Origin: Palleronia pelagia
Lineage (GTDB): Bacteria > Pseudomonadota > Alphaproteobacteria > Rhodobacterales > Rhodobacteraceae
Length of the DNA: 64,000 nt
Assembly: GCF_900110115.1 (NCBI RefSeq)
Contig: NZ_FOCM01000006.1
Coordinates: 186,001-250,000, forward strand
Direction of reading: 5' to 3'
Below are positions 17,375-33,495 of this stretch, one piece after another; position 1 is the first letter of the stretch; each line of letters opens with the position of its first letter. The notes under the pieces were generated by a model. The model was not told the origin of the DNA and ran no database searches. It worked only from the letters and a program-made list of their open reading frames with translations. Position numbers and translations under genes: made by a program.

Positions 17375-18697
17375 ATGCCACTGTCGATGTCCCGGAAAGA
17401 CTTCCCCGAAGGTTTCGAGTTCGGCGTCGCCACCGCCGCCTACCAGATCGAGGGCACGCGGAACGGCACCGTGGGCCGGTCCCACTGGGACAGCTACGCC
17501 GCGACGCTGGGCAACGTGGTGAATGGCGAGAACGGCGATGTGGCCTGCGACCACTACAACCGCTATGCCACCGACCTCGACCTGGTGAGGGACGGGAATT
17601 TCGACACCTACCGGTTCTCGTCCGCCTGGACCCGCGTGATGCCCGACGGGCGCACGGTCAGCGAAGAGGGGCTGGCCTTCTACGACAAGCTGGTGGACGA
17701 GACGCTGGCACGCGGGCTGAAGCCGTCGCTGACGCTTTATCACTGGGAACTGCCCGAGGTCTTTGCCGACCGGGGCGGCTGGTCGAACCGCGACACCGCG
17801 CTGGCCTTCGGCGATTACGCCCGCGCGGTCATGGATCGGCTGGGCGACCGGGTGCAGGCCGTGGCCACCATCAACGAGCCGTGGTGCGTCGCGTGGCTAT
17901 CGCATTTCCTGGGGCTTCACGCGCCGGGGGTGCGCAACATCCGCACCGCGACGCGCGCGATGCATCACATCAACCTTGCCCACGCCGAAGGCATGAAGGC
18001 GATCCGCGATTGCGGCTCGACGGCCGACGCGGGCATCGTTCTGAACTTCGCCTGGCCCAAGCCGGACACCGACGCCGACACGGACGCCGCGCGCCGGTTC
18101 GATGGGATCCACAATCGCTGGTTCCTCGAGGCGATCACCAAGGGGCAGTACCCCGACGATATTCTCGAGGGGCTGGGCGCGCACATGCCCGAGGGCTGGC
18201 AGGACGACATGGCGGCGATCTCGGCGCCGATCGATTGGCTGGGCGTGAACTACTACACCCGCACCACCCTGCGCGATCTGCCGGGCGCTGTCTGGCCCGC
18301 CTTCGAGGACGTGCCCGGCCCGCTGCCCAAGACCGACATGGGATGGGAGATCTATCCCGAGGGCCTGGGCGACCTGCTGAGCCGCATCGCGCGCGAGTAC
18401 ACGCAGGACACGCCGCTGATCGTTACCGAGAACGGCATGGCCGGGGACGACCATCTCGACAACGGCGCAGTCAAGGACCCGGTGCGCGTGCGGTATTTCG
18501 ACGATCACCTGAAATCGGTCCTGCGCTCCATCGGCGAGGGCACCCCGGTGCGCGGCTACTACGCCTGGTCGCTGCTGGACAACTACGAGTGGTCCTTCGG
18601 CTACGACAAGCGGTTCGGGATCGTCTACGTGGATTACGACACGCAGGAGCGGATCCCGAAGGCGTCGTATCACGCGCTGAAGGACGCGATCGGCTGA
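17375..18697 (+). CDS. GH1 family beta-glucosidase
   Basis: A 440-residue, full-length glycoside hydrolase family 1 enzyme with a TIM barrel. The N-terminal signature is FPEGFEFGVATAAYQIEG. The acid/base Glu is in VATINEPWC (about 168) and the nucleophile Glu in LIVTENGMAG (about 352). The aglycone/sugar-binding YAWSLLDNYEWSFGYDKRFGIVYVDY closes the fold. No signal peptide, so it acts in the cytosol on an imported glycoside or disaccharide. The start is the ATG at 17375 with GGAGGG upstream. It is convergent with the next gene. With the CUT1 ABC importer 10 kb downstream it may be part of the same carbohydrate-use region, though the strands and promoters differ. Confidence 0.9.
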   Translation: MPLSMSRKDFPEGFEFGVATAAYQIEGTRNGTVGRSHWDSYAATLGNVVNGENGDVACDHYNRYATDLDLVRDGNFDTYRFSSAWTRVMPDGRTVSEEGLAFYDKLVDETLARGLKPSLTLYHWELPEVFADRGGWSNRDTALAFGDYARAVMDRLGDRVQAVATINEPWCVAWLSHFLGLHAPGVRNIRTATRAMHHINLAHAEGMKAIRDCGSTADAGIVLNFAWPKPDTDADTDAARRFDGIHNRWFLEAITKGQYPDDILEGLGAHMPEGWQDDMAAISAPIDWLGVNYYTRTTLRDLPGAVWPAFEDVPGPLPKTDMGWEIYPEGLGDLLSRIAREYTQDTPLIVTENGMAGDDHLDNGAVKDPVRVRYFDDHLKSVLRSIGEGTPVRGYYAWSLLDNYEWSFGYDKRFGIVYVDYDTQERIPKASYHALKDAIG

Positions 18698-18703
18698 ATG
18701 GCG

Positions 18704-18730
18704 CGGCGCCGGGCTGCGAACCCGGCGCCG
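18704..18730. terminator. Bidirectional hairpin between convergent genes
   Basis: Perfect 10-bp arms CGGCGCCGGG (18704-18713) and CCCGGCGCCG (18721-18730) with a 7-base loop lie between the stops of the GH1 gene and the MetE-like gene. No long T-run, but the position between convergent stops supports a termination role. Confidence 0.6.
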
Positions 18731-18734
18731 GCGA

Positions 18735-19850
18735 TCAGGCCGCGTGGGCGCCCTCGGCCAGCGAGGCGAGCTTGGCCCAGGCGATTTCCGGATCCACCGC
18801 GCCGAAGCCGGCGAAGGTGCCGAACCCGCAATCGCTGCCGGCGATGACCCGTTCGGCCCCAACGATATCGACGAAGCGGCGGGTGCGCTCGGCCACCAGC
18901 TCGGGATGCTCGACGAAGTTGGTGGTGGTGTCGACCACGCCGGGGATCAGCACCTTGTCGTCGGGGATGTCGGCCTTGCGGTCGCGGAAGACCGACCATT
19001 CGTGGCCGTGGCGGGGGTTCGACGTCTCGAACAGCACATAGCGCGCGGGCACCGACATCAGCGTGTCGAACATCTTGGCCATGGGGATGTCGCAGACATG
19101 GGGGCCCTCGTAGTTGCCCCAGCAGATGTGAACGCGCACCTTGGCCGGGTCGACATCCGACAGCGCGTGGGCCAGCGCTTCGACATGGGACTGCGCTACC
19201 TTCACGAAGTCCGCGTCGCTCAGGTCGTTGAACAGCATGTGACGCGACAGCGCCAGGTCGGGGCAATCGAGTTGCAGGTCCAGCCCTGCGCCGACGATGG
19301 TCTCGTATTCCGCCTTCATCGCGTCGGCCAGCGCGGCCAGGTAGGCATCCCGCGTCTTGTAATGCGCGTTCTGCAGGAACAGCGAGATCACGCCGGGGCT
19401 GGCCGCGTTCATGAAGCCGCGGGTGGCGCCGTGCGCGTCCATCGCGGCCTTGAGATTGGCGATGTCCTTCTCGAGCTCGCCCTGGCCCTTGGACTTCACC
19501 TCGCCCACGCACATGGGACGGGCGTATTTCGGGGTGCCGCCACCTTCGGCTAGGCGCTTGAGGAAGGTCGGGAACTGCTTCAGGTCCGCGGGCGCGTTGC
19601 GGGGGCTGTCGCCGTCGAAGCCGGTATAGCGGTCCTTCACGTAGGTGGCGTAGCTGATCTTGCTGGTCTCGCCGTCGCTGACGATGTCGATGCCGGCCTC
19701 GACCTGCCGGCGCACCACGTAATCCACGCCCTCGGCCATGGCGGCGTCGAAATCGGCGGGGTCATATGGTTCGCCGCGTTCGCGGGCGAAGATGAAGTCG
19801 ACGATCTTCTGGCTGCGCGGCAGCGATCCAACGTGGGTGGCAAGGGTCAT
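18735..19850 (-). CDS. MetE-like zinc methyltransferase (cobalamin-independent methionine synthase II family)
   Basis: A 371-residue single-barrel relative of the MetE C-terminal domain (full MetE is about 750). It starts with THVGSLPRSQKIVDF. Zinc ligands are visible as His and Cys in VRVHICWGNYEGPH and Cys in GSDCGFGTFAGFGAVDPEIAWAKL. The fold activates a thiol for alkyl transfer; family members include methyl-homocysteine and epoxyalkane:coenzyme M transferases, so the thiol and donor cannot be named here. It is next to HAD-like, SAM-methyltransferase and cupin genes on the same strand. The ATG at 19850 gives the conserved MTLATHVGSLPR start. Confidence 0.8.
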   Translation of the reverse strand: MTLATHVGSLPRSQKIVDFIFARERGEPYDPADFDAAMAEGVDYVVRRQVEAGIDIVSDGETSKISYATYVKDRYTGFDGDSPRNAPADLKQFPTFLKRLAEGGGTPKYARPMCVGEVKSKGQGELEKDIANLKAAMDAHGATRGFMNAASPGVISLFLQNAHYKTRDAYLAALADAMKAEYETIVGAGLDLQLDCPDLALSRHMLFNDLSDADFVKVAQSHVEALAHALSDVDPAKVRVHICWGNYEGPHVCDIPMAKMFDTLMSVPARYVLFETSNPRHGHEWSVFRDRKADIPDDKVLIPGVVDTTTNFVEHPELVAERTRRFVDIVGAERVIAGSDCGFGTFAGFGAVDPEIAWAKLASLAEGAHAA

Positions 19851-19887: not shown

Positions 19888-20538
19888 CTAGCTTGATCGT
19901 GTGGCAACCGCCGGTGCCAACCGGTCCAGCACCATGTCGGCATGGGCGAAGTTCGACTGCGCGTGCATCCGGCCCGGAAGGGCGAAGCAGGTCAGCCCGG
20001 CGTCTTTCGCCGCCGTCACGCCGTCCGGATTGTCCTCGATCGCGATGGATCCGTCCGCGGTGCAGTCGAGCGCGGCCAGCGCGCGGTAATAGGCATCGGG
20101 CGCCGGCTTGGACTGGACCACGTCGCCGCGGGTCACGACGGTGTCGAAGGTGCCGCGCGACAGGCCCGTCGCGTCCAGAACGCAGTCCACATTCGCCGCC
20201 GATGTCGTGGTCACGAAGCCCAGCCGCCAGCCGGCGGCGCGCGTCTCGTCCAGCGTGTCGGCCACGCCCTCGCGCAGGGGCACGCCCTCGGCCAGCTTGT
20301 CGCAGAAGATCTCGGTCTTGCGGCGATGGATCTGGCCCACGTCCAGGCGCTGGTCGCGGTTGTCGGCATAGTCGCGGATGCGCTGCGCCCCACCGGATCT
20401 GGTCAGCATCGCGGCATAGGCGTCCTCGCTCCAGTGCCAGTCCAGCCCCGCCTCGCGGAAGGCGAGGTTGAAGGCGTCGCGTTGCAGGTGCGAGGTTTCG
20501 GCGAGTACGCCGATCGATCCGATAAGGAAGGCGGGCAT
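19888..20538 (-). CDS. HAD-superfamily protein lacking the motif I nucleophile
   Basis: A 216-residue protein of HAD subfamily IA shape: cap domain about residues 15-80, then motif II Thr in GFVTTTSAAN, motif III Lys in VVQSKPAPDAYYRAL and motif IV IAIEDNPDGVTAAKDAG. Where active HADs have DxDG, it reads LIGSIGVLAETS, so both motif I aspartates are absent (Gly and Ile instead). Known HADs need the first Asp as the phosphoryl-accepting nucleophile, so classical phosphatase activity is unlikely unless another residue takes over. I recall other Rhodobacterales proteins with the same GSIG start, which would make this a conserved variant and not a mutation; unchecked. Confidence 0.75.
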   Translation of the reverse strand: MPAFLIGSIGVLAETSHLQRDAFNLAFREAGLDWHWSEDAYAAMLTRSGGAQRIRDYADNRDQRLDVGQIHRRKTEIFCDKLAEGVPLREGVADTLDETRAAGWRLGFVTTTSAANVDCVLDATGLSRGTFDTVVTRGDVVQSKPAPDAYYRALAALDCTADGSIAIEDNPDGVTAAKDAGLTCFALPGRMHAQSNFAHADMVLDRLAPAVATRSS

Positions 20539-20634: not shown

Positions 20635-21267
20635 TCATGCCGGCCCCCGGCGTCGGCGGGCCAGGAGCACGCTGTGCCCGCCGCAGGTCGCGTCCGACAG
20701 GGTCAAACTCTCGACCACCAGGCCCGCCTGCCGGGACAGTCGCCGGTAGGTGCGGGGGGAGAGGCTGGCGTGGTAGACCTCCTCTCCCGCCACGCGGCCC
20801 GTGGTTTCGCCGGCCACCGGGCCGACGGTCAGCATCAGCCGGCCACCCGGGCGCAGCAGCCGCGCGAGGCGACGGAAACACCGTGCCTGCTGCAGCGGGC
20901 GCAGGTGGAAGAAGCCGTTCCACGAAAGGATGCCGTGGACCTTTTGTCTTGGAACGAACGTGCGCATGTCGCCCGACCGCAGGGGCGCGACCGGGCCGCG
21001 CCGCCGGGCGATGGCCAGCATGGGGCGCGCGATGTCGACCCCGGTGACCCGCATCCCGCGACGGCGCAGCCAGCCGGTGACGGGCGCGCCGGTGCCGCAG
21101 CCCAGGTCGAGCACGCGGGCACGGGGCGGCAGGGGCGCGGCGAAGCGTTGCAGCCAGCCGGCCTCGGCCAGGTGCCGCGACCGGTCCCGGTCGAAGGCGT
21201 GCGCGTGGGCCGCGTAGACCGCGCCCGTCCGCCGCGCGAGGCTGTCCAGGTCCGCCGCCGCCGTCAT
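20635..21267 (-). CDS. Class I SAM-dependent methyltransferase
   Basis: A 210-residue protein with a clear Rossmann-type methyltransferase fold: motif I VLDLGCGTGAPV (about 50-61), the acidic motif II VTGVDIARPMLAIA, then LRSGDMRTF, ILSWNGFFHL and RLLRPGGRLMLTVGPVAGE. The C-terminus (SLSPRTYRRLSRQAGLVVESL) matches small-molecule methyltransferases. The substrate is not readable from sequence. Its ATG overlaps the bicupin stop (TGATG), so the two are co-translated. It is part of a minus-strand run from the histidinol-dehydrogenase paralog to the MetE-like gene. Confidence 0.8.
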   Translation of the reverse strand: MTAAADLDSLARRTGAVYAAHAHAFDRDRSRHLAEAGWLQRFAAPLPPRARVLDLGCGTGAPVTGWLRRRGMRVTGVDIARPMLAIARRRGPVAPLRSGDMRTFVPRQKVHGILSWNGFFHLRPLQQARCFRRLARLLRPGGRLMLTVGPVAGETTGRVAGEEVYHASLSPRTYRRLSRQAGLVVESLTLSDATCGGHSVLLARRRRGPA

Positions 21268-22217
21268 CAGCGCATCGACGGTCCCGCCGGGTCGTCGGTG
21301 GCGACCACGTGGTACAGCGCGGCCTCGCCCGTCATGGACGGCAGCGCGTTGTGGGGCAGGTCGGCGGGCACCGACATGGTGTCGCCGGGGGCGATCACCT
21401 CGGAGCCGCCGGGCCAGTTTACTCGCCAGTGTCCGCGCACCGGCATCAGGACAGACGGCCGGTCGTGCTGGTGCATCTCCTCGCGCGCCGAGGACCGGGT
21501 CAGCAGGTCGACGTCGAAGCCCGGCTTGTCGCGGATGATCCCGCTCTCGCCGATCACCTTGCAGGCGCGGTCCTTGGCCAGCGCGGCCATGTCGTTGTAG
21601 CGGCGCACGCCCCAGCCCACGACTTGCATCGGGGTCAGCTCTTCGAACGCTCCGAGCTCGTCGTCGGTCAGGACCGGCATGGGCTTCACGCCCTCGGGAA
21701 GGGTCTGGCCCTTCTTGGTGTCGTAGAGCTTGCCGTTTTCGCCCAGGACCAGCCCATGGTCGCGCGCGTCCTCGATCACCTGCGGGGCCCAGATGACGCC
21801 GCCGCCCGCGTCGTCCCCGCCGAGGATCGCCATGATCATCCCGTAATCGGTGCCCACGTTCTCGAACCCGCGGAAGATGCCGGTGGGAATGTTGATGATG
21901 TCGCCTTGTTCCAGCAGCACCTCGCCCGCGTCGCCCCAGCGGCCCCAGAAGAACCGCCAACGGCCCGACAGGACGAAGAACACCTCGGCCGTGCGGTGGG
22001 AATGGAGCGAGTTTCGGCAGCGCGGCGGCTGACCGGCTGCGCCGATATTGAACCCGTGGGGTTCGTTTATGTGGACGTGCTGGTCGGCGGCCTCGCTCAC
22101 GCCGCCGCCGATGATCGTGAAGTTCTCCTTCTGGTCCGACCCGGGTGTGTGGGCGTCGATGAAGGCGGTCTTGCAGGGGATCAGTTCGCCGTAGCGGACG
22201 GTCGTCGGGGTGGTCAT
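21267..22217 (-). CDS. Bicupin protein
   Basis: A 316-residue protein with two cupin barrels. The first (about 60-130) has RNSLHSHRTAEVFFVLSGRWRFFWG ... GDIINIPTGIFRGFENVG, with the usual H-x-H, E and H/G-type metal site. The second (about 235-305) has EEMHQHDRPSVLMPVRGHWRVNW ... APGDTMSVPADLPHNAL with H-x-H. Cupin pairs of this size act as dioxygenases, isomerases or sugar-binding proteins; the reaction here is unknown. The stop overlaps the methyltransferase start (TGATG) and the start overlaps the SRPBCC gene end by four bases, so it is tightly coupled to both. Confidence 0.75.
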   Translation of the reverse strand: MTTPTTVRYGELIPCKTAFIDAHTPGSDQKENFTIIGGGVSEAADQHVHINEPHGFNIGAAGQPPRCRNSLHSHRTAEVFFVLSGRWRFFWGRWGDAGEVLLEQGDIINIPTGIFRGFENVGTDYGMIMAILGGDDAGGGVIWAPQVIEDARDHGLVLGENGKLYDTKKGQTLPEGVKPMPVLTDDELGAFEELTPMQVVGWGVRRYNDMAALAKDRACKVIGESGIIRDKPGFDVDLLTRSSAREEMHQHDRPSVLMPVRGHWRVNWPGGSEVIAPGDTMSVPADLPHNALPSMTGEAALYHVVATDDPAGPSMR

Positions 22218-22663
22218 GTTGCGTCCTCGTTCAGAAGGGTCTCGAAACGGTCGAGCATCGTGGTCCAGCCCTCGGTCACCTGCGCCTCGGTGGGCTGGTC
22301 GTCGAGCGCGGCGATCTGGCTGGTGCAGTGCATCCGCGTGCCGTCACCGTGCGGTTCGAACTCCACGAGCGTCTGCATGGTCATCCGGCAGGCGCCGCCG
22401 AAGACGCCGCGGCCCTGGACCAGCAGGCGATGGGGTGGGTCGCAGACGCGGATCTCGTCGATCATCTCTCCGATGCGTGTGCCCTCGTGCTCGATGGCGA
22501 CGATCTCGGTGCCGCCGGCGCGGGTGTCATACCCTTCGTGCCGCATGCCCGATCCCTCGGGCGTCTCGAACCGGGCGTGCCAGTCGGGGTTCGTCCAGCC
22601 CGCGAAGATCGTCTCGGGCGGCGCGAGAAAATCCCGGGTCAGGTGGACGGTGAAATGCCCCAT
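22214..22663 (-). CDS. SRPBCC (AHSA1-type) domain protein
   Basis: A 149-residue START-like fold protein: FTVHLTRDFLAPPETIFAGWTNPDWHARFETPEGSG at the start, a central sheet (IRVCDPPHRLLVQGRGVFGGACRMTMQTLVEFEPHGDGTRMHC) and the long closing helix (GWTTMLDRFETLL). The family binds hydrophobic or aromatic small molecules or helps chaperones. The ATG at 22663 is the family start; the frame is open further but unlike. It lies four bases after the two-domain SnoaL gene and overlaps the bicupin gene, so it belongs to the same transcript. Confidence 0.78.
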   Translation of the reverse strand: MGHFTVHLTRDFLAPPETIFAGWTNPDWHARFETPEGSGMRHEGYDTRAGGTEIVAIEHEGTRIGEMIDEIRVCDPPHRLLVQGRGVFGGACRMTMQTLVEFEPHGDGTRMHCTSQIAALDDQPTEAQVTEGWTTMLDRFETLLNEDAT

Positions 22664-22667
22664 GGCG

Positions 22668-23633
22668 TCATCCCTGTGCCAGGAGGATCTGCTTCCAGAT
22701 CGCGATTTCGTCGTAGTAGCCGTATTCGCGCCGAAGGCCCCAGGGTCCGAACTCGGCATGGCTCATCCCCATGACGTGGACGCGCGCGCCGGTGGGCCGG
22801 CCGAAGGCACCCCAGCCGTCGTGGGTCCCGTCCAGCGACCAGCGGATCGCGGCGCGCGGGGGCAGCATGTCGCCCTCCATCCCGATCCGATGGTGGATGG
22901 TGAAGGTGGCCGAGGGAAAGGACGATCGCAGACCGACCCAGAACCCGGTCGCGTCCTCGCGGCCCAGCGTCGCCAGCCCACCCGCGTAGTCGCCGATCAC
23001 CGCGCGGTCATAGCCCTTGAGGATGTGGGCGAAGTCGGCCTCCATGATCCGGGTCAGGGTCGCGGCATACCGCTCGCCCCAGGCGTTGTCGTTGCCGCGC
23101 CCGTGGTAGCCGCCGTCGATGTCGTCCTCGGGCCGGAACGGCATGGTCGCGCTGCCCGGGCCGCCCTCGGCCTCGATCAGGCCTTGCGCATAGGCGCGCG
23201 GGTCCATCCCCAGGGCGCGGACGATGCCGCCATAGTCGCGCACCAGCCATTCGTCGTAGATCGTCTCGTCCCGCGCGGCGCAGTCGGCGATGACGCGCAC
23301 GGTCCAGCCGCGGCCGGTGGCCGGGCCGAACTGCCCGTCGCGTGTATGGGTCGCCGTGGTGATCAGCCGGTGCGACGACAGGTGCCCGTGGGCGGGATCG
23401 TTGGACCAGATCACGTCCTCGCCGAAAAGCTGGCGGTCCGGAAATTCGTGCACGGTGGCCATGGTCGAGGCGATCACCGCCTTGTTGCCGCGCTGGATCC
23501 CCATGGGCGAGCGCACGACGATGTCGTCGCTGTAATAGCGGTTCAGCGTCTCGATCCCGCGGTCTTCCCAGATCTGCTTGGTGATGCCGATGATGTAGCT
23601 GGGAAAATCGGCGAACTGTGCGGAATAGCTCAT
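22668..23633 (-). CDS. Two-domain SnoaL/NTF2-like protein
   Basis: A 321-residue protein with two cone-shaped SnoaL-like domains (about 10-150 and 175-320). Features are FADFPSYIIGITKQIWEDRGIETLNRYYSDDIVVRSPMGIQRG, DEWLVRDYGGIVRALG in the linker, and in the second half GYDRAVIGDYAGG, HHRIGMEGDMLPPRAAIRWSLDGTHDGWGAFG and MGMSHAEFGPWGLRREY. SnoaL-like folds are cyclases, dehydratases, isomerases or binding proteins. The ATG overlaps the LacI stop (ATGA). A second two-domain relative is at 32494 and a single-domain one at 27363, so this locus uses the fold three times. Confidence 0.75.
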   Translation of the reverse strand: MSYSAQFADFPSYIIGITKQIWEDRGIETLNRYYSDDIVVRSPMGIQRGNKAVIASTMATVHEFPDRQLFGEDVIWSNDPAHGHLSSHRLITTATHTRDGQFGPATGRGWTVRVIADCAARDETIYDEWLVRDYGGIVRALGMDPRAYAQGLIEAEGGPGSATMPFRPEDDIDGGYHGRGNDNAWGERYAATLTRIMEADFAHILKGYDRAVIGDYAGGLATLGREDATGFWVGLRSSFPSATFTIHHRIGMEGDMLPPRAAIRWSLDGTHDGWGAFGRPTGARVHVMGMSHAEFGPWGLRREYGYYDEIAIWKQILLAQG

Positions 23634-24646
23634 TCGGTCCATCCTTCGGGGCAGCGGGCCGAGCCGCGCAGGACAAGCGCGGCGTCGATCCGGATCGATT
23701 GCGGGGCGCGGTCGGGCTCGGCGATCTGGGCCACCAGCGTCTCGACCGTGGAATCGACCATGCGGCGCACCGGCTGGCGCACGGTTGTGAGGTCGTAGGC
23801 GGGCCAGGCGGCCATGGGCACGTCGTCGAAGCCGACGACCGACACGTCGCCCGGCACCGACAGCCCCATCTCGTGGCGCAGCGTGTCCATTACGGCGAAG
23901 GCCATGTGGTCGTTGCCGACGAAGATGGCGTCGGGTGGCGTCGCTGTGTCCATCATCGCCAGCGTGGCCGCGCGGGCCGCGTCGCGGTCGTAAAGACCGT
24001 CGATCACGGCGACCGGCGCCGTCCCCGCCTCGGCCAGCCCGGCCTCGAAGCCCAGCAGGCGGTCGCGCCCGGTCGAGGATTGCTGCCACCCCGCCACGTG
24101 GGCGATCCGCTGGTGCCCGCCCGCGACGAGAAACCGCGCGACCTGCCGCGCGCCCGCGTCATTGGCCGAGGTGACCGAGGACAGGCCGACCCCGTCCTGC
24201 CCGCGGTTGAACAGGACGATGGGAATGCCCGCCTGCGCGCAGCGGTCGGTCAGGTCGTTGGTCATCGCAACCGACGCGGTGATGATCCCGTCCACGCGAT
24301 AGGCCGTCAGTTCGTCCATGACGCTTTCGATCTCGGACGGACTGTTGCCGACGGTGAAGACGAGGATGCGGTAACCCTCGGCCTTCAGCGCGCGCGACAG
24401 CAGTTCCAGCGCGACCGGGTAGAACGGATTGTCGAAATAGGCGACCACCAGCCCGATGATGCCCGACCGCCCGGTGATCATCGCCCGGGCCCAGGGATTG
24501 GGGCGATAGCCCAGCTCCGCGGCCGCGCGGCGGACCTTCTGGGCGGTGGCCGCGCTGGCCGAGGCGCCCGAGAACACGCGGCTGACCGCCGACTGGCTGA
24601 CACCGGCCAGCCGGGCCACGTCCAGCGATGTGACCTGGCTGTTCAT
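23630..24646 (-). CDS. LacI-family transcriptional regulator
   Basis: A 338-residue repressor. The N-terminal helix-turn-helix is SLDVARLAGVSQSAVSRVFSG (about 7-27), followed by the hinge helix ELGYRPNPWARAMITGRSG. The periplasmic-binding-like effector domain has IGLVVAYFDNPFYPVALELLSRAL, VDGIITASV, GIPIVLFNRG, GHQRIAHVAG, PDAIFVGNDHMAFAVMD and VSVVGFDDVPMAAWPAYDLTTVRQP. It overlaps its neighbours on both sides by four bases (SDR upstream, SnoaL downstream). The likely targets are the two 16-bp palindromes at 28914 and 29035, in the divergent ABC-transporter promoter of the same locus. The effector is presumably the imported compound or its product. Confidence 0.9.
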   Translation of the reverse strand: MNSQVTSLDVARLAGVSQSAVSRVFSGASASAATAQKVRRAAAELGYRPNPWARAMITGRSGIIGLVVAYFDNPFYPVALELLSRALKAEGYRILVFTVGNSPSEIESVMDELTAYRVDGIITASVAMTNDLTDRCAQAGIPIVLFNRGQDGVGLSSVTSANDAGARQVARFLVAGGHQRIAHVAGWQQSSTGRDRLLGFEAGLAEAGTAPVAVIDGLYDRDAARAATLAMMDTATPPDAIFVGNDHMAFAVMDTLRHEMGLSVPGDVSVVGFDDVPMAAWPAYDLTTVRQPVRRMVDSTVETLVAQIAEPDRAPQSIRIDAALVLRGSARCPEGWTE

Positions 24647-25407: not shown

Positions 25408-26057
25408 GCGGCCTCCGGGTAATGGATGCCCCGGAAGGGCGGGAAATCGGCATAGCGGGCCGCGCGCGCGGCCGTGGGTTCGGACGGTGCGTCACCCGCC
25501 GCCAGAAGCGTGCCGCGCGGCGCGATGTAGCTGGCGATCTTGCGCTTCGGCCGCTCGGACCAGGTGAGGTTCAGGGCCGCGAGCCTGGGGAAGAACTGCT
25601 GCTCGGAATAGGGCAGGTGGTCGTGGATCCACCAGGCGAGGTCGCGCCAGTCACGCCCCCGCGCGTAGCCATCCGCGAACCACGGCACAACGATGCAGAC
25701 GGTCGCCCCCATGGCGCCGTCCGCGTCGCGCCGGTCCCAGATGTGGCCGCCGTAATTCAGTTCGTTGCGCGAGCATTTCTGCGGCCGTACCTCGGTCGCG
25801 CCGAAATGGTTCAGGTCGGGCGAGCGATAGCCCGACCGCACGTGGATCGGGCCGAAGGTCTCGACCAGCGGGTCGAGCAACTCCACGCACAGCCGGGTGC
25901 CGGCCGTGACCAGCAGGTCGGGATCGTCGGGGATGTTGGCCTGCCCGTAGAAGCACCCGATCTCGGAGAACAGGAAGTCGCGCAGGAAGAAATGGCGCGA
26001 CAGCCGCACGCGGCCCAGATCCTCCAGCGCGGTGTAACTTCGCGGGCGGCGTCTCAT
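25404..26057 (-). CDS. Peptidase M15-like domain protein
   Basis: A 217-residue protein resembling the M15A/DD-peptidase-like fold: [104 protein letters not shown] and [14 protein letters not shown]. The His/Asp/His pattern ([16 protein letters not shown]) may bind a metal as in M15 enzymes, but there is no signal peptide, so it is cytosolic. Proteins of this type occur in alphaproteobacteria as unknowns. Its position between an SDR and the HpsN-type dehydrogenase with four-base overlaps suggests a metabolic job in this locus and not cell-wall work. Confidence 0.6.
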
Positions 26058-27358
26058 TCCGCGGCCTCGCCGTAAGGCACGTTGCGACCGCCATAGCGGC
26101 GGACGCGCAGGTTGCACTGCTCGGCATGGCCGACGAACCCTTCCAGCATGCACAGCCGCGACCCGTAGGCGCCGATCATCGCGGCCGCCTCGTCGGTCAG
26201 GATCTTCTGGTAGCTGTGGGTCTTCAGGAACTTGCCGACCCAGAGACCGCCGGTATAGCGCCCGGCCTTCTTCGTGGGCAGCGTGTGATTGGTGCCGATC
26301 ACCTTGTCACCATTGGCCACGTTGGTGCGCGGCCCCAAAAACAGCGCGCCGTAGCAGGTCATGTTCTCGAGATACCAATCGTCCCGGTCGGTCATGACCT
26401 GCACATGCTCGGACGCAATGTCGTCGGCGACCTTCAGCATCTCGTCGTGGTCGTCGCAGACGATCACCTCGCCGTAGTCGCGCCACGAGGCGCTGGCGGT
26501 GTCGGCGGTGGGCAGGATCGCCAGCAGGCGGTCGATCTCGGCCAGCGTCGCCTCGGCCAGCTTGCGCGAGGTGGTCAGCAGGACGGCGGGCGAGTTGTAG
26601 CCATGCTCGGCCTGGCCCAGCAGGTCGGTGGCGCAGATCTCGGCATCGACGGTATCGTCGGCGATGACCAGCGTCTCGGTCGGGCCGGCGAACAGGTCGA
26701 TGCCGACACGGCCGAACAGCTGGCGCTTGGCCTCGGCGACGAACGCGTTGCCGGGACCCACCAGCATGTGGACGTGGTCGATGGTCTCGGTCCCCAGCGC
26801 CATGGCGCCCACCGCCTGGATGCCGCCGAGCACGTAGATCTCGTGCGCGCCGCCCAAGTGCATGGCGGCGATCACGGCCGGGTTGGGCTTGCCCTTGAAG
26901 GGCGGGGTGCAGGCCACGATGCGCGGCACGCCCGCGACGCTGGCCGTGGCCACGGACATGTGGGCGCTGGCCACCATGGGGAACTTGCCGCCGGGCACGT
27001 AGCAGCCCACCGATTGCACGGGGATGGTCTTGTGACCCAGGATGACGCCCGGCAGCGGCTCGACCTCGAGATCCAGCATGGTGTCGCGCTGGGCCTGGGC
27101 GAAGTTGCGCACTTGCTCCTGCGCGAACTTGATGTCGTGCAACTCCTGCTCGGACAGCTCGGCCATCAGGGCGTCGATGTCCGACTGGCTCAGCCGGAAC
27201 GATTCGGGCGTGTAGTTGTCGAACTTCGCGGCCAACTCGCGCACGGCGGCGTCGCCGCGCGTCTCGATCTCGCGCAGGGTCGCCTCGACCGTGGCGCGCA
27301 CCTGTGCGTCGTCATCGGCGCGCTCGGACTGGGACTTGGCGGTCTTCAGATATTCCAT
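26054..27358 (-). CDS. Histidinol-dehydrogenase family enzyme (HpsN-type paralog)
   Basis: A 434-residue zinc NAD-dependent dehydrogenase. Family marks are [77 protein letters not shown] (201 on), zinc-site residues Gln249 and His252 in [13 protein letters not shown], catalytic Glu317-His318 in ASEHVQVM, and [28 protein letters not shown]. No other his gene is nearby and the neighbours are catabolic, so histidine synthesis is unlikely. HpsN, the marine sulfopropanediol 3-dehydrogenase, belongs to this paralog group; sulfonated or plain diols are possible substrates. It sits four bases after the single-domain SnoaL gene. Confidence 0.82.
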
Positions 27359-27362: not shown

Positions 27363-27851
27363 TTACTCCGGCTCGGACGGTGTGGCGCGGCCTTCGTCGA
27401 AGGCTTCCCAGCCGTGGCCGTCGAACACGTCCCGGCCCAGCTGCGCGCAAACGGCGGCGAAATCGACCGAGACGGGGTTGTCGGCGATGCGCCCGTCCTC
27501 GACGCGCCAGAAATCCATGTACGGGATCCTCACGCGTTTGCCGGTGGCGGGGATGCCCATGAAGGTGCCGGAATGCGTGGCCTCGATATGACCCCAGCAG
27601 GCGGCCCAGTCGCCGTCGGCCATGAAATGCTCGGTCCTGTAGTCGCGGTCGGTGAAGGCCGCGCGCAGCGGCAGTTGCCAGTTGCGGCGGAATTCCTCGA
27701 CCCCGCGCTTGGTGCCGCAGCCCTGGTTGCCGCGCCACAGGAAGTCCCCGTGGAAATAGCGGGTCATGTCGTTCTCGCCGGCGGCGAGCCCGTCTTCCAT
27801 CCGCTTCACCGCGTCGAGCGTGGCCTGCGATCTCGCGTCCCGCCCGCTCAT
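27363..27851 (-). CDS. Single-domain SnoaL/NTF2-like protein
   Basis: A 162-residue protein of the SnoaL-like fold: a helical start ([37 protein letters not shown]), [19 protein letters not shown], the central sheet [35 protein letters not shown], and [23 protein letters not shown]. The layout matches the ester-cyclase/SnoaL group. Its start overlaps the ABC ATPase stop (ATGA) and the HpsN-type gene follows four bases after its stop. It is the smallest of three SnoaL-like proteins in the locus. Whether it is an enzyme or binds the substrate is unknown. Confidence 0.75.
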
Positions 27852-28900
27852 CGGTTCGTCCCCAGCCGTTCGCCGCTGTCGCGGTCGAACAGGTGGCAGA
27901 TGCCCGGCGGGATAGACACCGACACCTCGGTCCCGATCTCGGCGCGGTAGTCCTTGTCGGCCTTGACCGAAACCAGCGTGCCGCCCGCGCGCATGGTGAC
28001 CATCGTCGCCTCGCCCAGCAGTTCGAGCGAGTAGATCGACGCGCGTAATTGCCCGTCCTCGGCCAGCGTCGCGTCCTCGGCCCGGAAGCCCAGCGTCACC
28101 GGTCCGTCGGGGCCGGTCAGGCCCGGGATGCGGACCTTGTCGGCCTCGAACGTGCCGTCCTTCAGGGTGCCGTCCATCAGGTTCATGGCCGGGCTGCCGA
28201 TGAAGCCCGCGACGAAGGTGTTGGACGGGTTGTCGTAGATCTCGGTCGGGGTGCCCACCTGCTGGATCACGCCCCGCTGCATCACGACGACACGGTCGGC
28301 CAGCGTCATCGCCTCGATCTGGTCGTGGGTGACGTAGATCGTGGTGACCTTCAGCTCGTGGGACAGGTTCTTGATCTGCGCGCGGGTGCTGACCCGCAGC
28401 TTGGCGTCGAGGTTCGACAGCGGCTCGTCCATCAGGAACGCGTTGGGGGTGCGGACGATGGCACGGGCCAGGGCCACGCGCTGGCGCTGGCCGCCCGAAA
28501 GCTCCTTGGGGCGGCGGTGCAGGAAATCGGTCAGCTCGACCATCTCGGCGGCGCGGCGCACGGCGGCGTCGTGGTCGGCCTCGTTGGTCTTTCGCACCTT
28601 CAGCGGGAAGCGGATGTTCTCGTAGACATCCATGTTCGGGTAGAGCGCGTAGGACTGGAACACCATGGCCACGTCGCGGTCCTTGGGGTCGAGATCGTTG
28701 ATCCGCCGCCCGTCGACCAGGATGTCGCCGCTGGTCACGTCCTCGAGCCCCGCGATCATGCGCATGGTCGTGGTCTTGCCGCAGCCCGACGGTCCCAGCA
28801 ACACCAGGAATTCGCGGTCCGCGATGGTCAGGTTGAAATCCGCCACGCCGACGAAATCGCCCCAGCGCTTGTGCACGTTCTTCAGCTGTATCTCGGCCAC
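27848..28900 (-). CDS. CUT1-type ABC transporter ATPase (MalK/UgpC-like)
   Basis: A 350-residue ATPase for the importer encoded divergently. Walker A is GPSGCGKTTTMRM, the Q-loop VFQSYALYPNMDVYENIRFPL, the signature LSGGQRQRVALARAI, Walker B FLMDEPLSNLDAKLR, and the H-loop IYVTHDQIEAMTLADRV. The C-terminal regulatory OB domain (about 235-350) marks the MalK/UgpC class. I chose GTG at 28900 (VAEIQLKNVHKRW is the family start); the ATG at 28933 lies inside the upstream operator palindrome and adds 11 unlike residues. It opens the minus-strand run that continues to the LacI gene and beyond. Confidence 0.9.
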   Translation of the reverse strand: MAEIQLKNVHKRWGDFVGVADFNLTIADREFLVLLGPSGCGKTTTMRMIAGLEDVTSGDILVDGRRINDLDPKDRDVAMVFQSYALYPNMDVYENIRFPLKVRKTNEADHDAAVRRAAEMVELTDFLHRRPKELSGGQRQRVALARAIVRTPNAFLMDEPLSNLDAKLRVSTRAQIKNLSHELKVTTIYVTHDQIEAMTLADRVVVMQRGVIQQVGTPTEIYDNPSNTFVAGFIGSPAMNLMDGTLKDGTFEADKVRIPGLTGPDGPVTLGFRAEDATLAEDGQLRASIYSLELLGEATMVTMRAGGTLVSVKADKDYRAEIGTEVSVSIPPGICHLFDRDSGERLGTNR

Positions 28901-29138: not shown

Positions 29139-30377
29139 ATGAGCTTCATGAAAACCACCGCCCTGGCATCGGTGCTGGCCGTGACCGGCACCGCCGTGCT
29201 GGCCGATTGCCCCGTGACCGAGGGCCGCCTGTCCCTCGTGGGCAACGAATTTCCCGCCATCCAGTCCGTCGCCGCCCTGGCGCAGGAGTGCATGGGCGAG
29301 GGCACCGAGGCCAGCGCCAACCTGACCGCCGACCACCAGAAGATCAACGTCGCCGGCATGAGCGGAAACCCGGCGGAATACACCAGCGCCATCATCGCCA
29401 ACTCGTCCATCGTCGCGCTGATCAACGAGGACGTGATCCGCCCGCTGGACGACCTGATCGCCGAGTACGGGCAGGACATTCCCGACCTCCAGAAGATCAC
29501 CATCGACGGGCAGGTCATGGCCATCGCCTTCATGGCGAACGCGCAGACGCTGGTCTATCGCGCCGACGTGCTCGAGCAGATCGGCGTGGACGTGCCCGAG
29601 ACCTACGAAGAAGTGCTGGAAGCGGCCGAGATGATCCGCGAGCAGGGGATCATGGAGAACCCGCTGGGCGGCGCCTATGCCGCCGGCTGGAACCTCGCCG
29701 AGGAATTCGTGAACATGTATCTCGGCCATGGCGGCCAGTTCTACGAGGCGGGCACGCCCCAGGTCGCCATCAACAACGAGGCGGGGGTCAAGACGCTCGA
29801 GATGCTGAAGGCGCTGAGCGAGTACATGAACCCCGACTACCTGACCCACGATTCGAACGCGACCAGCGCCGAGTGGGAAGCGGGCAACGTCGCGCTGATG
29901 AACATGTGGGGCTCGCGCTCGGGCGTGCTGATGGACGAGGAAGGCTCGGAGCCGCAGGTCTACGAGAACACCAAGGTGGCGCCGCCGCTGACCGTCGATG
30001 GCGGCGATATCCCGGCCTCGACCCTGTGGTGGGACGGCTGGACCGTCGCCAAGAACATCAGCGACGAGGACGCGGCCGCGACCTTCCAGGCGCTGGCCCA
30101 TGCCACGTCGCCCGCGCTTCTGAACGACAAGACCATGGGCGAGGCCGTGTGGCTGATCGACGGCTACGAGCCCGCGCCGGTGAACGAGGGCGTGCTGGCC
30201 GCGACCCGCATGGGCACCCAGCCCTACCCGATGCTGCCCTACCAGGGACTGCTGCACACCGCGCTGGGCGACAACATCGCCGACTACCTGCAGGGCAACG
30301 AGACGGCCGAGCAGGCGCTGTCCGACATCGAGGCCGCCTACACGGCCGCCGCGCAGGAAAAAGGCTTCCTGAACTAA
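29139..30377 (+). CDS. CUT1-type ABC transporter substrate-binding protein
   Basis: A 412-residue secreted binding protein. The signal peptide is MSFMKTTALASVLAVTGTAVLA (cut before DCPV). The mature part is a type I sugar-binding fold: IIANSSIVALINEDVIRPLDDLIAEYGQDI, VMAIAFMANAQTLVYRADVLEQIGVDVPETYEEVLEAAEMI, EWEAGNVALMNMWGSRSG and NEGVLAATRMG. The start at 29139 follows AGGGAG. Two Cys (Cys24, Cys51 or so) may pair. It faces the ATPase gene across the operator pair and is followed by both permeases. Ligand not predictable; a sugar, polyol or glycoside is typical of the class. Confidence 0.88.
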   Translation: MSFMKTTALASVLAVTGTAVLADCPVTEGRLSLVGNEFPAIQSVAALAQECMGEGTEASANLTADHQKINVAGMSGNPAEYTSAIIANSSIVALINEDVIRPLDDLIAEYGQDIPDLQKITIDGQVMAIAFMANAQTLVYRADVLEQIGVDVPETYEEVLEAAEMIREQGIMENPLGGAYAAGWNLAEEFVNMYLGHGGQFYEAGTPQVAINNEAGVKTLEMLKALSEYMNPDYLTHDSNATSAEWEAGNVALMNMWGSRSGVLMDEEGSEPQVYENTKVAPPLTVDGGDIPASTLWWDGWTVAKNISDEDAAATFQALAHATSPALLNDKTMGEAVWLIDGYEPAPVNEGVLAATRMGTQPYPMLPYQGLLHTALGDNIADYLQGNETAEQALSDIEAAYTAAAQEKGFLN

Positions 30378-30446: not shown

Positions 30447-31469
30447 ATGAAACACAAGAGCTTCTTCTGGTTCGTCCTGCCGTCGAGCATCGCGATGCTC
30501 CTGTTCATCTTCTTCCCGATCCTGTCGGTGCTGCTGCAATCGGTCTTCACCGAGCACGAGCAGGTCATCAAGGAGGTCCGCAACTGCGGGCCGTTCGGCT
30601 GCCAGACCACAACCTCCATCGACCAGGAGGCGACCGCCGCCCTGCGCGAGGCCGAGCCGCTGGGCCGGTTCGTGGGCCTTGGCGTCTATTTCGACCGCGG
30701 GCACCTGGCCTTGTCCGAGGTCGCGCAACTCTGGCGCGAAAGCGCGGGACTGGGCGCGTTCTTCGACCGCCTGCTGAACCTACCGTTCTACAAGGCCATC
30801 GCCTTCACCCTGACCTATACCTTCGTGGTCACGCCGCTGACCATCGTGCTGGGGTTCGTCATCGCCGTGGCGGTGAACTCGGCCGCGCGGGCGATCCGCG
30901 GGCCGCTGATCTTCGTGTCGCTGCTGCCCTTCATCATCACGCCGCTGGTGGGCAGCCTCGTGCTGTTCTGGATGCTGGACGCGCGGGGGATCATCGGCTC
31001 GGCAATGCAAGTGCTGGCGGATGATCCCGACCTGTCCGTGAAGGCGTCGACGCCGCTCATGTGGACGATGCTGATGGTTTACGGCGTCTGGCACAGCGCG
31101 CCGTTCGCCTTCATTGTCTACTATGCGGGGCTTCAGACAGTGAACCAGGACACTCTGGAAGCCGCGATGGTCGACGGTGCCTCGCGGTGGGAGCGGATCC
31201 GCTACGTCGTCATCCCGCACCTGCTGCCGATCACGACCTTCATCGCGCTGATCCAGCTGATGGACAATTTCCGCGTGTTCGAACCCATCGTCAGCTTCTC
31301 GGCGCAGGCCCATGCCACGTCGCTCAGCTGGGCGATCTACAACGACCTGTCGGGCGAGACGCGGCAGCTGAGCTCGGCCGCCGCGACGTCGTTTCTGACG
31401 ATCATCGGCGTGGCGATCCTGCTGTCGCCGGTCATCGTGCGCACCTACCGCGATTTCACCAGGAAATAA
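30447..31469 (+). CDS. ABC transporter permease, MalF-like
   Basis: A 340-residue inner-membrane permease. A first helix (FFWFVLPSSIAMLLFIFFPILSVLL) is followed by a periplasmic insert of about 70 residues with two Cys (NCGPFGCQ), then five helices. The cytoplasmic EAA loop that meets the ATPase is EAAMVDGASRWERIRYVVIPHLLPI. The large insert after helix 1 recalls, in smaller form, the MalF P2 loop that contacts the binding protein. It lies 69 bases after the binding-protein gene and 3 bases before the second permease, all one transcript. Confidence 0.9.
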   Translation: MKHKSFFWFVLPSSIAMLLFIFFPILSVLLQSVFTEHEQVIKEVRNCGPFGCQTTTSIDQEATAALREAEPLGRFVGLGVYFDRGHLALSEVAQLWRESAGLGAFFDRLLNLPFYKAIAFTLTYTFVVTPLTIVLGFVIAVAVNSAARAIRGPLIFVSLLPFIITPLVGSLVLFWMLDARGIIGSAMQVLADDPDLSVKASTPLMWTMLMVYGVWHSAPFAFIVYYAGLQTVNQDTLEAAMVDGASRWERIRYVVIPHLLPITTFIALIQLMDNFRVFEPIVSFSAQAHATSLSWAIYNDLSGETRQLSSAAATSFLTIIGVAILLSPVIVRTYRDFTRK

Positions 31470-31472: not shown

Positions 31473-32354
31473 ATGGCGTCCAAGGCCTTTCGCAAACCCC
31501 TTCCGCTGCAGGCGCTGCTGATCTTCTTCCTCGTGGTCTGGGTCGTGATGGCGGCCTTCCCGTTCCTCTGGACGGTCTGGGGGTCGTTCAAGGTCGAGGG
31601 TGATTTCTTCTCCAAGGCCGACTGGGCCAACGCGATCTTCGGCACGCGGACCCGGGCCGAGACCGGGGACCTGTTCACCGGGCAGGGCTACTACGGCGCG
31701 TGGGTTCAGGAAGAATTCTGGCGCGCCGCGCTGAACACGCTGATCGTCTGCGCGGCGACGGTGATGATCTCGCTCACCTTCGGCACGCTGGGCGCCTATG
31801 CGCTGTCGCGGTCGACCTACCGCTACGCGTTCTGGTTCCTGATCATCGCGCTGATCTTCCGGGCCATGCCGCCGATCACGCTGGTGTCGGGGTACCTTCC
31901 GGTGTTCTTCGACTGGAACCTTTGGGGGCATCTGCCCACGGCGATTATCGTGCTGGTGGCGATCAACCAGCCGTTCACGCTGTGGATGCTGCACAGTTTC
32001 TTCAACAACATCCCCAAGGACCTGGACGAAAGCGCCATGGTCGACGGCTGCACCCGGTTCCAGGCGTTCCGGCACGTGATCGTCCCGGTGATGTGGCCGG
32101 GGGTCATCACCACGGCCCTGTTCTCGTTCCTGCTGGCCTATAACGACTTCGCCATCACCGCGCTGGTCCTGTCGAAGGAGAACCAGACCATGGTGCCGAA
32201 AATCGCCAGCTTCCTCGGCACCACGCAGACCAAGGGCAACGTCATGTTCGCCGTGGCGGCGGTGGTGTCGGTGACCGCGCCGCTGTTCGTGATGATCATG
32301 TTCTTCCAGCGCCAGATCGTCAGCGGCCTGACCGCGGGGGCGGTGAAGGGCTGA
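31473..32354 (+). CDS. ABC transporter permease, MalG-like
   Basis: A 293-residue second permease: first helix LLIFFLVVWVVMAAFPFLWTVWGSFK, the TLIVCAATVMISLTFGTLGAYALSRSTYRYAF stretch, and the EAA loop DESAMVDGCTRFQAFRHVIVPVMWPGVIT. It ends with FFQRQIVSGLTAGAVKG, the usual MalG-type C-terminus that touches the ATPase. Together with 27848, 29139 and 30447 it completes an importer, with all four parts inside the operator-controlled region. Confidence 0.9.
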   Translation: MASKAFRKPLPLQALLIFFLVVWVVMAAFPFLWTVWGSFKVEGDFFSKADWANAIFGTRTRAETGDLFTGQGYYGAWVQEEFWRAALNTLIVCAATVMISLTFGTLGAYALSRSTYRYAFWFLIIALIFRAMPPITLVSGYLPVFFDWNLWGHLPTAIIVLVAINQPFTLWMLHSFFNNIPKDLDESAMVDGCTRFQAFRHVIVPVMWPGVITTALFSFLLAYNDFAITALVLSKENQTMVPKIASFLGTTQTKGNVMFAVAAVVSVTAPLFVMIMFFQRQIVSGLTAGAVKG

Positions 32355-32382
32355 GGCCGCGCACCTGCGCCGCGACGCGGCC
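32355..32382 (+). repeat. Inverted repeat after the second permease
   Basis: GGCCGCG (32355-32361) and CGCGGCC (32376-32382) form a 7-bp inverted repeat starting one base after the permease stop. It may mark the transporter transcript end, but has no T-run. Confidence 0.35.
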
Positions 32383-32493
32383 ATTACACATCCCCATGGC
32401 CGCCATGCGAAATCGGTGCTTCATCGTGTCGCCGCCGCGCGCTAGTGTCGCACCGCCCACGGTCGCGCGTGGGCGCATGCGAAGGGTTCCGTG

Positions 32494-33495
32494 ATGTCCT
32501 TCCAGGCGGAAAAGGCCCTGGTCCTCGATCACTACGACGCCCTGTCCCGGGCGACGCCCGAGACGGTCGCCGAAATCCTGTCCGAGCGAACGGCGCCCGA
32601 CTGGCTCTGGCGCGGCGTGCGCCCGTTCGAATCGCGCTGCGGCGCGCGCGACGTGGCCGAGACGCTCTGGCAGCCGCTTCTGACCGCGATGCCGCGGCTG
32701 CAACGGCGGCCCGACATCTTCTTCGCGGGCCACTCTGACCGGGCCACGGGCGGTGTCTGGGTCGTCCAGATGGGCCATCTCATGGGGCTGCTGGACCAGC
32801 CCTTCCTGACGATCCCCGCCAGCCGCAAGATCGCGATGCTGCGCTATGCCGAGTTCAACCGCGTCGAGAACGGCCGAATCACCGAGACCGCGTTCTTCTG
32901 CGACCTGCTGCACCTGGCGCGGCAGGCTGGCCTGAACCCGTTGCCCCAGCAGACGGCGCAGCACCTGGTCCAGCCCGGCCCGCTGACCCATGACGGGCTG
33001 CTCTACCGCGACGCCGACCCGGCCGAAGGGCGAGAGACCCTCGACCTGATCGAGCGGATGATCGGCGACATCAACACCCGCGCGCGGTTCGAGACGCCCG
33101 AACAGGAACTGGCGCAGACCTGGCACGACGACATGATCTGGTGGGGCCCCGAGGGGATCGGCGCGACCTACACCATCCCGCGCTACATCGAGCAGCACCA
33201 GCGTCCGTTCCGCACGCACCTGTCGGACCGCGTCTTCAATGGTCACGTGGCGCGTCTGGCCGAAGGAAGCTATGGCGGTTTCTTCGGCTGGCCCAACCTG
33301 TCGCTGACAAATTCGGGCGCCTTCATGGGCGTGCCGGGCGACGGGGTGACGCGCGCCGACATGCGGGTCGTCGATATCTATCGCCGCGCGGGCGACAGGC
33401 TGGCCGAGAACTGGATCTTCATCGACATGCCCCATTTCCTGGCGATGCAGGGCGTGGACGTGCTGGGGCTGGACGCGCTGGTGCCGACGGTCTGA
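32494..33495 (+). CDS. Two-domain SnoaL/NTF2-like protein
   Basis: A 333-residue protein with two SnoaL-like domains (about 5-140 and 180-325): LVLDHYDALSRATPETVAEILSERTAPDWLWRGVRPF, GGVWVVQMGHLMG, RYAEFNRVENGRITETAFFCDLLHLARQAGL, then WHDDMIWWGPEGIGATYTIPRYIEQHQRPFRTHL, GSYGGFFGWPNLSLTNSGAFMGVPGDG and DMRVVDIYRRAGDRLAENWIFIDMPHFLAMQG. It follows the permease by 139 bases on the same strand. It uses ATG at 32494; GTG at 32491 is equally possible. It resembles the protein at 22668 in layout, so the two may act on related compounds or form a pair. Confidence 0.75.
   Translation: MSFQAEKALVLDHYDALSRATPETVAEILSERTAPDWLWRGVRPFESRCGARDVAETLWQPLLTAMPRLQRRPDIFFAGHSDRATGGVWVVQMGHLMGLLDQPFLTIPASRKIAMLRYAEFNRVENGRITETAFFCDLLHLARQAGLNPLPQQTAQHLVQPGPLTHDGLLYRDADPAEGRETLDLIERMIGDINTRARFETPEQELAQTWHDDMIWWGPEGIGATYTIPRYIEQHQRPFRTHLSDRVFNGHVARLAEGSYGGFFGWPNLSLTNSGAFMGVPGDGVTRADMRVVDIYRRAGDRLAENWIFIDMPHFLAMQGVDVLGLDALVPTV

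Follow-up and report, generated by a model that had tools for sequence, protein, structure and literature searches.

A conserved LacI-type locus of Palleronia pelagia with three SnoaL-fold proteins and a HisD-family dehydrogenase

What kind of compound would call for a CUT1 importer, a LacI-family regulator, a paralogue of histidinol dehydrogenase (HisD) and three SnoaL-fold proteins, all encoded side by side? This question is raised by a locus of Palleronia pelagia within a stretch of 64,000 nucleotides (NZ_FOCM01000006.1, positions 186,001 to 250,000; hereafter the window) that is carried by contig C21 of a 3.85 Mb genome. The original prediction, made from the letters of the window, had described a LacI-controlled catabolic system with these parts, and both a conserved gene set and a conserved operator now bear it out. 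In fact, the locus is a real regulon under one LacI regulator, which presumably acts as a repressor. The reading favored here, with a probability of roughly 0.58, is that this LacI-repressed regulon serves the import and catabolism of a small, non-phosphorylated polyhydroxylated compound that would be carbohydrate-, polyol- or cyclitol-like.

Conservation of the gene set and its operator

The HisD-family protein of the window was searched for in 398 genomes of the phylum, 394 of the family (close to one for each genus) and 385 of the class. Its own group, treated below as a third HisD subfamily, was found in 31 of the phylum genomes (E ≤ 1e-130), 192 of the family genomes and 56 of the class genomes (both at E ≤ 1e-150), cut-offs that exclude HpsN of the kind this genome carries, which scores 8.2e-123. 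Regions of up to 19.5 kb were then taken around 110 HisD genes, comprising all 30 non-self phylum matches and 80 hand-picked family and class matches, mostly high-scoring and on long contigs. Gene calling in these relatives was trained on known genes, and some of the counted loci also went into building the profiles, so that the co-occurrence counts are a description of this set rather than an independent test.

SnoaL genes, from one to six per locus, were found at 66 of the 110 loci. Here they were accompanied by genes for a short-chain dehydrogenase/reductase (SDR; 65 loci), a bicupin (63), the LacI regulator (62), the CUT1 solute-binding protein (SBP; 50) and a MetE-like protein (49). The two-domain protein SnoaL2d and the SnoaL3 type each occurred at 58 loci and the single-domain SnoaL1 at 42, together with an alpha/beta hydrolase (48), an RraA-type (40) or HpcH/HpaI-type (11) aldolase (both at 2), and, less often, Amidohydro_2 (14), GMC (9) and amidase (5) genes. 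The original prediction had staked its case on conservation in relatives, and the core set indeed co-occurs at these 66 loci. At the 44 loci lacking SnoaL, the corresponding counts were SDR 29, LacI 18, HpcH 9, amidase 7, bicupin 6, alpha/beta hydrolase 5, RraA 4, MetE 3 and SBP 2. SnoaL genes were carried by 50 of 64 HisD loci from the same family versus 16 of 46 more distant ones, hand-picked loci included.

Clusters with SnoaL occur in the named genomes of Marinovum algicola DG 898 (pMaD9), Paracoccus alcaliphilus, Pantoea dispersa and Sinorhizobium medicae, and a search of E. coli with one cluster SnoaL gene of the enterobacterial type gave no match. The HisD search also matched 125 plasmid records, some of them SnoaL-free; no SnoaL gene was in view in the HisD regions of Sulfitobacter pontiacus or of pRL8 from Rhizobium 3841. 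The pRL8 enzyme, 81.5% identical to that of the window and flanked by pntAB and acs, was considered as an expression clue to the substrate and set aside: its neighborhood is SnoaL-free, the available text of PMC3333776 is silent on it, and that of PMC7105596 names it just among the proteins whose level falls in a gmcA mutant.

The regulator itself carries a LacI helix-turn-helix and a sugar-binding domain, and is predicted to bind two CG-centered palindromes of 16 bp, TTGCATACGTTTGCAA and TTGCAAGCGTATGCAA, located in the divergent promoter between the UgpC and SBP genes. A scan of the window that allowed two mismatches returned only these two sites (four matches counting strands, where 0.12 were expected), and 1 of 100 shuffled windows reached four matches. 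Across the whole genome, the pattern TTGCAnnCGnnTGCAA likewise occurs just at these two sites, with no match to the reversed pattern, in keeping with the divergent operator control that had been proposed.

The operator was present at 49 of the 66 HisD loci with SnoaL versus 4 of the 44 without. It was also found at 67 of 93 SnoaL-bearing loci (66 of 92 without one duplicate) in a mixed set retrieved through the 217-aa gene of the locus, HisD and plasmids, again with no reversed-pattern matches; the HisD-anchored set gives the cleaner figure. Nearly all of the sites lie close upstream of a cluster gene (UgpC, SBP, SnoaL, HisD, SDR or LacI), the exceptions being the second site at L179 and the site at L236. 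Sites occur as well upstream of the Enterobacterales-type version of the cluster (L160-L162, L165 and Pantoea dispersa L178).

A genome scan placed a strict operator site in 45 of 246 family genomes, and 13 operator regions were fetched, 12 not beside a listed HisD match and one beside such a match (L276). HisD was in view in three of them (L273, L274 and L276). Long clusters with SnoaL and LacI were seen at L264, L269 and L272, only the importer and a single SnoaL gene at L265, and a site upstream of an HpcH-type gene at L270; L266, L267 and L275 were cut by contig ends or fragmented, L267 showing only the start of UgpC. At L271, the site directly precedes a MetE gene standing alone, so MetE belongs to the regulon even where it does not adjoin HisD.

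Among known systems, the closest in regulation are the LacI-controlled sugar operons (AglR, ThuR and others; PMC4052901), which share the local LacI protein, divergent promoter, CUT1 importer and SDR; the enzyme set of the window, in contrast, was not encountered in the available text of that work. The same text gives 54 LacI groups just as general sugar metabolism, and the regulator of the window may belong to these. Searches of the open-licence full-text literature, main articles only, brought up no described pathway that matches gene for gene, as the original prediction had expected, and the combination of SnoaL, bicupin, HisD and MetE appears to be new among LacI-controlled import and oxidation operons. 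A catabolic route common in marine bacteria, and found in some soil and plant bacteria too, seems to have no substrate assigned to it so far. The operator offers an inducer assay, which makes the substrate question directly testable.

Candidate reactions

In the proposed route, the compound would be taken in by the CUT1 importer, or by an MFS, SSS or GPH symporter in relatives, and an inducer would release the LacI protein from the two operators of the divergent promoter. The HisD-family enzyme would take a primary alcohol (CH2OH) to the carboxylate by two successive oxidations with NAD, and the SDR would oxidize a secondary hydroxyl, or epimerize it via a ketone, with the action of HpsN and HpsO on 2,3-dihydroxypropane-1-sulfonate (DHPS) as the model. 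Ketone and carboxylate would acidify the adjacent C-H, and the SnoaL-fold proteins could then carry out proton transfer in an isomerization, an elimination (dehydration) or a retro-aldol reaction. The bicupin might act on the enolic product, the MetE-like protein might add methyl, or some other alkyl group, to a thiol or take it off one, and in many relatives the route would end in pyruvate through the alpha/beta hydrolase and a pyruvate-forming aldolase of the RraA or HpcH/HpaI type. It is conceivable, if rather doubtful, that the SnoaL proteins form a new class of sugar or polyol lyase, in which proton abstraction like that of ketosteroid isomerase, with elimination across a chain or ring, follows formation of the SDR ketone and the HisD carboxylate. 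A major unrecognized metabolite of algae or plants, such as a methylated or cyclic polyol, would then be degraded oxidatively and without phosphorylation in perhaps a third to half of the genera of Rhodobacteraceae.

The transport genes are consistent with a polyhydroxylated substrate. The importer comprises an SBP, two BPD_transp_1 permeases and a MalK/UgpC ATPase with an OB/TOBE domain, as is characteristic of CUT1; next to the CUT1 SBP counted above, MFS carriers were seen at 4 and SSS carriers at 3 of the 66 loci, and a GPH-family symporter takes the place of the importer at 4 of 19 named loci retrieved via the 217-aa gene. CUT1 and GPH carriers are typical for sugars and related compounds. 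The best solved match of the SDR is 2-deoxy-D-gluconate 3-dehydrogenase, with HpsO (8wwf) also listed, and a Pfam and NCBIfam scan of the window cluster found no kinase, which fits a phosphorylation-free route.

The same scan found no polyketide synthase among the cluster genes. The model of SnoaL2d (mean pLDDT, the predictor's confidence score, 91.7) has two SnoaL/NTF2-like domains and comes nearest to IdmH; polyketide cyclases are its best structural matches and limonene-epoxide hydrolases lie farther down, at about 10-22% identity. The model establishes the fold of this protein, but not its reaction. Fold and domain family are shared with the SnoaL/NTF2-like polyketide cyclases, whereas here tandem two-domain forms, one of them modeled, sit in a catabolic regulon.

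A number of observations weigh against the favored reading. HisD is not obligatory: the clusters at L264, L269 and L272 and that of Vibrio pelagius (L177) have importer, LacI and SnoaL genes with no HisD in view. Two of the genomes with HisD-less clusters (G208 and G235) have a HisD locus elsewhere, and the genome of L272 has no third-subfamily HisD among the matches listed. Conversely, 44 of the 110 HisD loci lack SnoaL. Neither RraA nor HpcH was found at 17 of the 66 SnoaL loci. The window cluster contains neither the aldolase nor the hydrolase: in the Palleronia genome the search for RraA, which did not extend to HpcH, gave E 2.9e-5 at best, and the closest alpha/beta hydrolase, 45% identical, is encoded on a different contig (C6). 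The solved relatives of the SBP are all distant (nearest SmoF, E 1.1e-8), the bicupin model reaches only a moderate pLDDT of 77.5, and an anionic substrate is possible because Lys352 of the HisD-family enzyme is invariant (see below). Finally, the operator pattern also precedes a gene of the GH13 alpha-amylase family with CUT1 genes (L268, position 7972); this is perhaps an AglR-type regulon, and related LacI proteins may share an operator sequence.

Ring cleavage provides another way to join most of these genes, and is the least improbable of the alternatives, if still an unlikely one. The SDR and SnoaL proteins would dehydrogenate and dehydrate a cyclic polyol or enol, the bicupin would open the ring as a dioxygenase, and the steps after it would fall to a hydrolase resembling PcaD and an RraA aldolase resembling LigK. 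The fold of the bicupin does match quercetinase and salicylate/gentisate dioxygenases, but oxalate decarboxylases fit its model equally, and the metal site of its N-terminal cupin, in which H72, H74 and E78 are kept, has Arg116 at the place of the expected third histidine. We take this place to be that of the last histidine of the cupin metal motif. Similarly, PcaD models give the hydrolase its highest scores and RraA weakly matches LigK, yet the NCBIfam scores for both are far under the curated cut-offs, and the aldolase is missing at 17 of 66 loci. As for the Amidohydro_2 gene found at 14 of the 66 loci, its protein scores only against a fucono-lactonase model, below the cut-off.

Demethylation of an O-, N- or S-methylated polyol, with the MetE-like protein passing the methyl group to a thiol, appears slightly less probable still. 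The MetE-like protein does have conserved zinc ligands (H241-x-C243, E275 and C341 in GSDC341GF, each kept in at least 93% of 77 aligned rows), and its gene stands at 49 of 66 loci as well as separately behind an operator. On the other hand, it is missing at 17 of 66, Enterobacterales-type clusters included, inspection by eye noticed no corrinoid protein or partner, and the known core-MetE enzymes make methionine, as far as the available text of PMC7857596 goes. With those core enzymes (MesA-D) the protein shares the Mes zinc motif and a zinc catalytic domain without a folate domain; it differs in sitting in a catabolic regulon and in scoring far below the NCBIfam methionine-synthase cut-offs. 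The hint of methyl chemistry in the original prediction may still hold: the MetE-like gene belongs to the system, whereas the methyltransferase gene, at just 7 of 66 loci, does not.

The HisD-family dehydrogenase and the sulfonate question

The dehydrogenase had been labeled HpsN-type, and a sulfonated polyol had been considered as its substrate. According to the available text of PMC11382572, HpsN is separated from HisD by His126 in the motif G-R-Y-A/S-H, which binds the sulfonate. In the window enzyme this place is taken by Met128 (GGKFPM), and among 136 third-subfamily sequences (the window included; 134 distinct) it is Met in 113, Leu in 22, Ile in 1 and His in none. The catalytic and zinc residues Glu317, His318 and Asp351 (Glu318, His319 and Asp352 of HpsN) are found in 136 of 136, as is Lys352, the equivalent of HpsN Lys353, which also contacts the sulfonate. 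The window enzyme is 60-99% identical to others of its subfamily, 48% (389 bits) to the HpsN-like enzyme of the same genome and 37% to that genome's HisD on contig C6. In a HisD tree the third subfamily forms a clade of 80 rows at 99/98, with HisD of C6 outside it; the tree was used for this clade only, as the genome's HpsN and HisD rows are very long-branched and the bootstrap is unsettled. By residues and alignment, the enzyme is assigned to a third subfamily, neither HisD nor HpsN, and the earlier label is incorrect.

The HpsN motif proper is found elsewhere in the genome, where a HisD-family gene with GRYSH (contig C10, 138489-139751) lies beside genes for a DctM permease of the tripartite ATP-independent periplasmic (TRAP) type, an SDR and a zinc-type alcohol dehydrogenase (ADH_N). 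This corresponds to an hpsNOP arrangement, and the ordinary DHPS route is apparently present in the organism too. The window cluster holds no alcohol-dehydrogenase gene of the MDR type, and so does not reproduce the HpsN-HpsO-HpsP operon.

A pathway for DHPS or another sulfonate, with the window gene acting as hpsN, is accordingly quite improbable. The enzyme does align best to HpsN structures and keeps the lysine, the pairing of HisD and SDR in one operon resembles the hpsNO module of DHPS degraders (Cupriavidus, Ruegeria), with the same catalytic Glu, His, Asp and Lys, and the nearest solved SBP, though distant, is the sulfoquinovosyl-glycerol-binding SmoF. Nevertheless, His126 is replaced throughout, the GRYSH enzyme sits with its own partners elsewhere, and no SuyAB, CuyA or Xsc was seen among the annotated neighbors or, by eye, the called ones, a point on which no dedicated search was made. 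Compared with the HpsN/HpsO module, moreover, the window system has CUT1 instead of TRAP, a LacI operator, and additional SnoaL, bicupin and MetE-like genes. The distinction from HpsN also matters for surveys: an ocean survey (PMC11131964, in its available text) counted hpsN at a cut-off of 167 bits, and the window enzyme scores 389 bits against the genome's HpsN-like enzyme, so such surveys may count another pathway as DHPS degradation. The motif GK[FY]P[ML], as opposed to GRY[AS]H, should separate most third-subfamily enzymes from HpsN.

Outside SnoaL clusters, a third-subfamily gene lies beside a TRAP transporter at L263, and at L164 a HisD-SDR pair lies near Rieske-like, two tandem GST-like, cyclase-family and methyltransferase genes (labels assigned by eye). 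The pair at loci of this kind may serve aromatic diols. Considering such SnoaL-less neighborhoods, the substrate class cannot be read from HisD alone. A smaller set of HisD-like proteins, sharing the motif R[FY]P[IL]LSAPVM (L160, L161, L162, L165, L178, L213, L242 and L260), is about 46-52% identical to the window enzyme, and several of its loci adjoin two-domain SnoaL and amidase genes. At L156, L158 and L159, the HisD genes are directly preceded by a CUT1 importer operon that also encodes an enzyme resembling mannosylglycerate hydrolase (Pfam MGH1-like in the copy of L158); a similar operon was seen by eye some kb before the operator site of L267.

That the locus is a chance run of unrelated genes is hardly credible: several of its members (GH1, HAD, SRPBCC, the 217-aa gene and the methyltransferase) are indeed unconserved, but the conserved gene set, operator and divergent promoter already contradict it.

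Layout of the locus and accessory genes

The genes are present where the original prediction had placed them, with open frames (Table 1), and Pfam or NCBIfam matches were obtained for GH1, Meth_synt_2, HAD, methyltransferase, cupin, SRPBCC (AHSA1), LacI, SDR, Histidinol_dh, the MalK/UgpC-type ATPase, the SBP and both permeases. The three SnoaL-fold proteins, one single-domain and two with two domains, score above the Pfam cut-off, as had been claimed. A minus-strand run from 28900 to 18735 leads from UgpC through SnoaL1, HisD, the 217-aa protein, SDR, LacI, two-domain SnoaL, SRPBCC, bicupin, methyltransferase and HAD to the MetE-like gene, and a plus-strand run from 29139 to 33495 holds SBP, PermA, PermB and the other two-domain SnoaL. 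Seven junctions of the minus-strand run overlap by 1-4 bases, as read directly from the coordinates: the predicted ATGA couplings are found at 27848-27851, 26054-26057, 25404-25407, 24643-24646, 23630-23633 and 22214-22217, and a 1-base overlap at 21267 joins methyltransferase and bicupin. A 96-bp gap noted earlier exists, but it lies after the methyltransferase and before HAD (20539-20634) rather than preceding the methyltransferase. The nearest named match is Palleronia salina DSM 26892, in which all 17 proteins of the region are 94-100% identical (the 217-aa protein 99%) and in unchanged order.

Table 1. Features of the locus, with window coordinates, strand and basis or occurrence among related loci
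MetE-like zinc alkyl/methyl transferase (predicted), regulon member	18735..19850	-	core Meth_synt_2 domain, Pfam PF01717; 49/66 related loci
HAD-fold protein, accessory	19888..20538	-	2/66 related loci
S-adenosylmethionine (SAM) methyltransferase, accessory	20635..21267	-	7/66 related loci
Bicupin, core	21267..22217	-	63/66 related loci
SRPBCC (AHSA1), accessory	22214..22663	-	0/66 related loci
Two-domain SnoaL-fold protein (SnoaL2d), core	22668..23633	-	58/66 related loci
LacI-family regulator	23630..24646	-	62/66 related loci and conserved operator
SDR dehydrogenase, core	24643..25407	-	65/66 related loci
217-aa protein, no family match, accessory	25404..26057	-	4/66 HisD-anchored loci
HisD-family dehydrogenase, assigned to third subfamily (GGKFPM)	26054..27358	-	neither HisD nor HpsN
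Single-domain SnoaL-fold protein (SnoaL1)	27363..27851	-	42/66 related loci
UgpC/MalK-type ATPase of CUT1 importer	27848..28900	-	profile matches
Predicted LacI operator 1, TTGCATACGTTTGCAA	28914..28929	.	pattern scan
Predicted LacI operator 2, TTGCAAGCGTATGCAA	29035..29050	.	pattern scan
CUT1 solute-binding protein (SBP)	29139..30377	+	profile matches
CUT1 permease A	30447..31469	+	profile matches
CUT1 permease B	31473..32354	+	profile matches
Second two-domain SnoaL-fold protein (SnoaL3 type)	32494..33495	+	SnoaL3-type protein, orthologue or paralogue, in 58/66
GH1 beta-glucosidase, convergent neighbor outside the system	17375..18697	+	0/66 related loci

Four genes that had been counted as parts of the system, those for GH1, HAD, SRPBCC and the methyltransferase, were rejected as such, occurring at 0, 2, 0 and 7 of the 66 related loci, respectively. 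The SRPBCC gene is absent from that set, yet present at L276 and at one locus retrieved twice (L073 and L271). The HAD protein had been described as nucleophile-free, and both motif-I aspartates are in fact missing from the segment MPAFLIGSIGVLAET, whose position presumably corresponds to HAD motif I.

The 217-aa protein had been called M15-like. It has no Pfam match, of the M15 type or any other, even at E 5, and no match in the PDB better than E 0.03, so the label falls away. It was found in 97 of 295 family genomes, and 80 named loci were inspected: phaZ/phaC was in view at 43, HisD with SnoaL at 19, both at 5 and neither at 23. Because phaZ/phaC was in view at 43 of the 80 loci and HisD with SnoaL at just 19, the gene was dropped as a marker of the cluster. 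The polyhydroxyalkanoate neighborhood may be a place of insertion of the cluster. In Palleronia pontilimi (L005), the 217-aa gene adjoins the bicupin and the other 15 proteins are unmatched in 20.6 kb, which looks like partial loss of the cluster.

Farther along the window (34105-34548), a free-standing OB-fold protein of 147 aa aligns to an error-prone DNA polymerase model over no more than the final ~95 residues of the latter, and is possibly a remnant.

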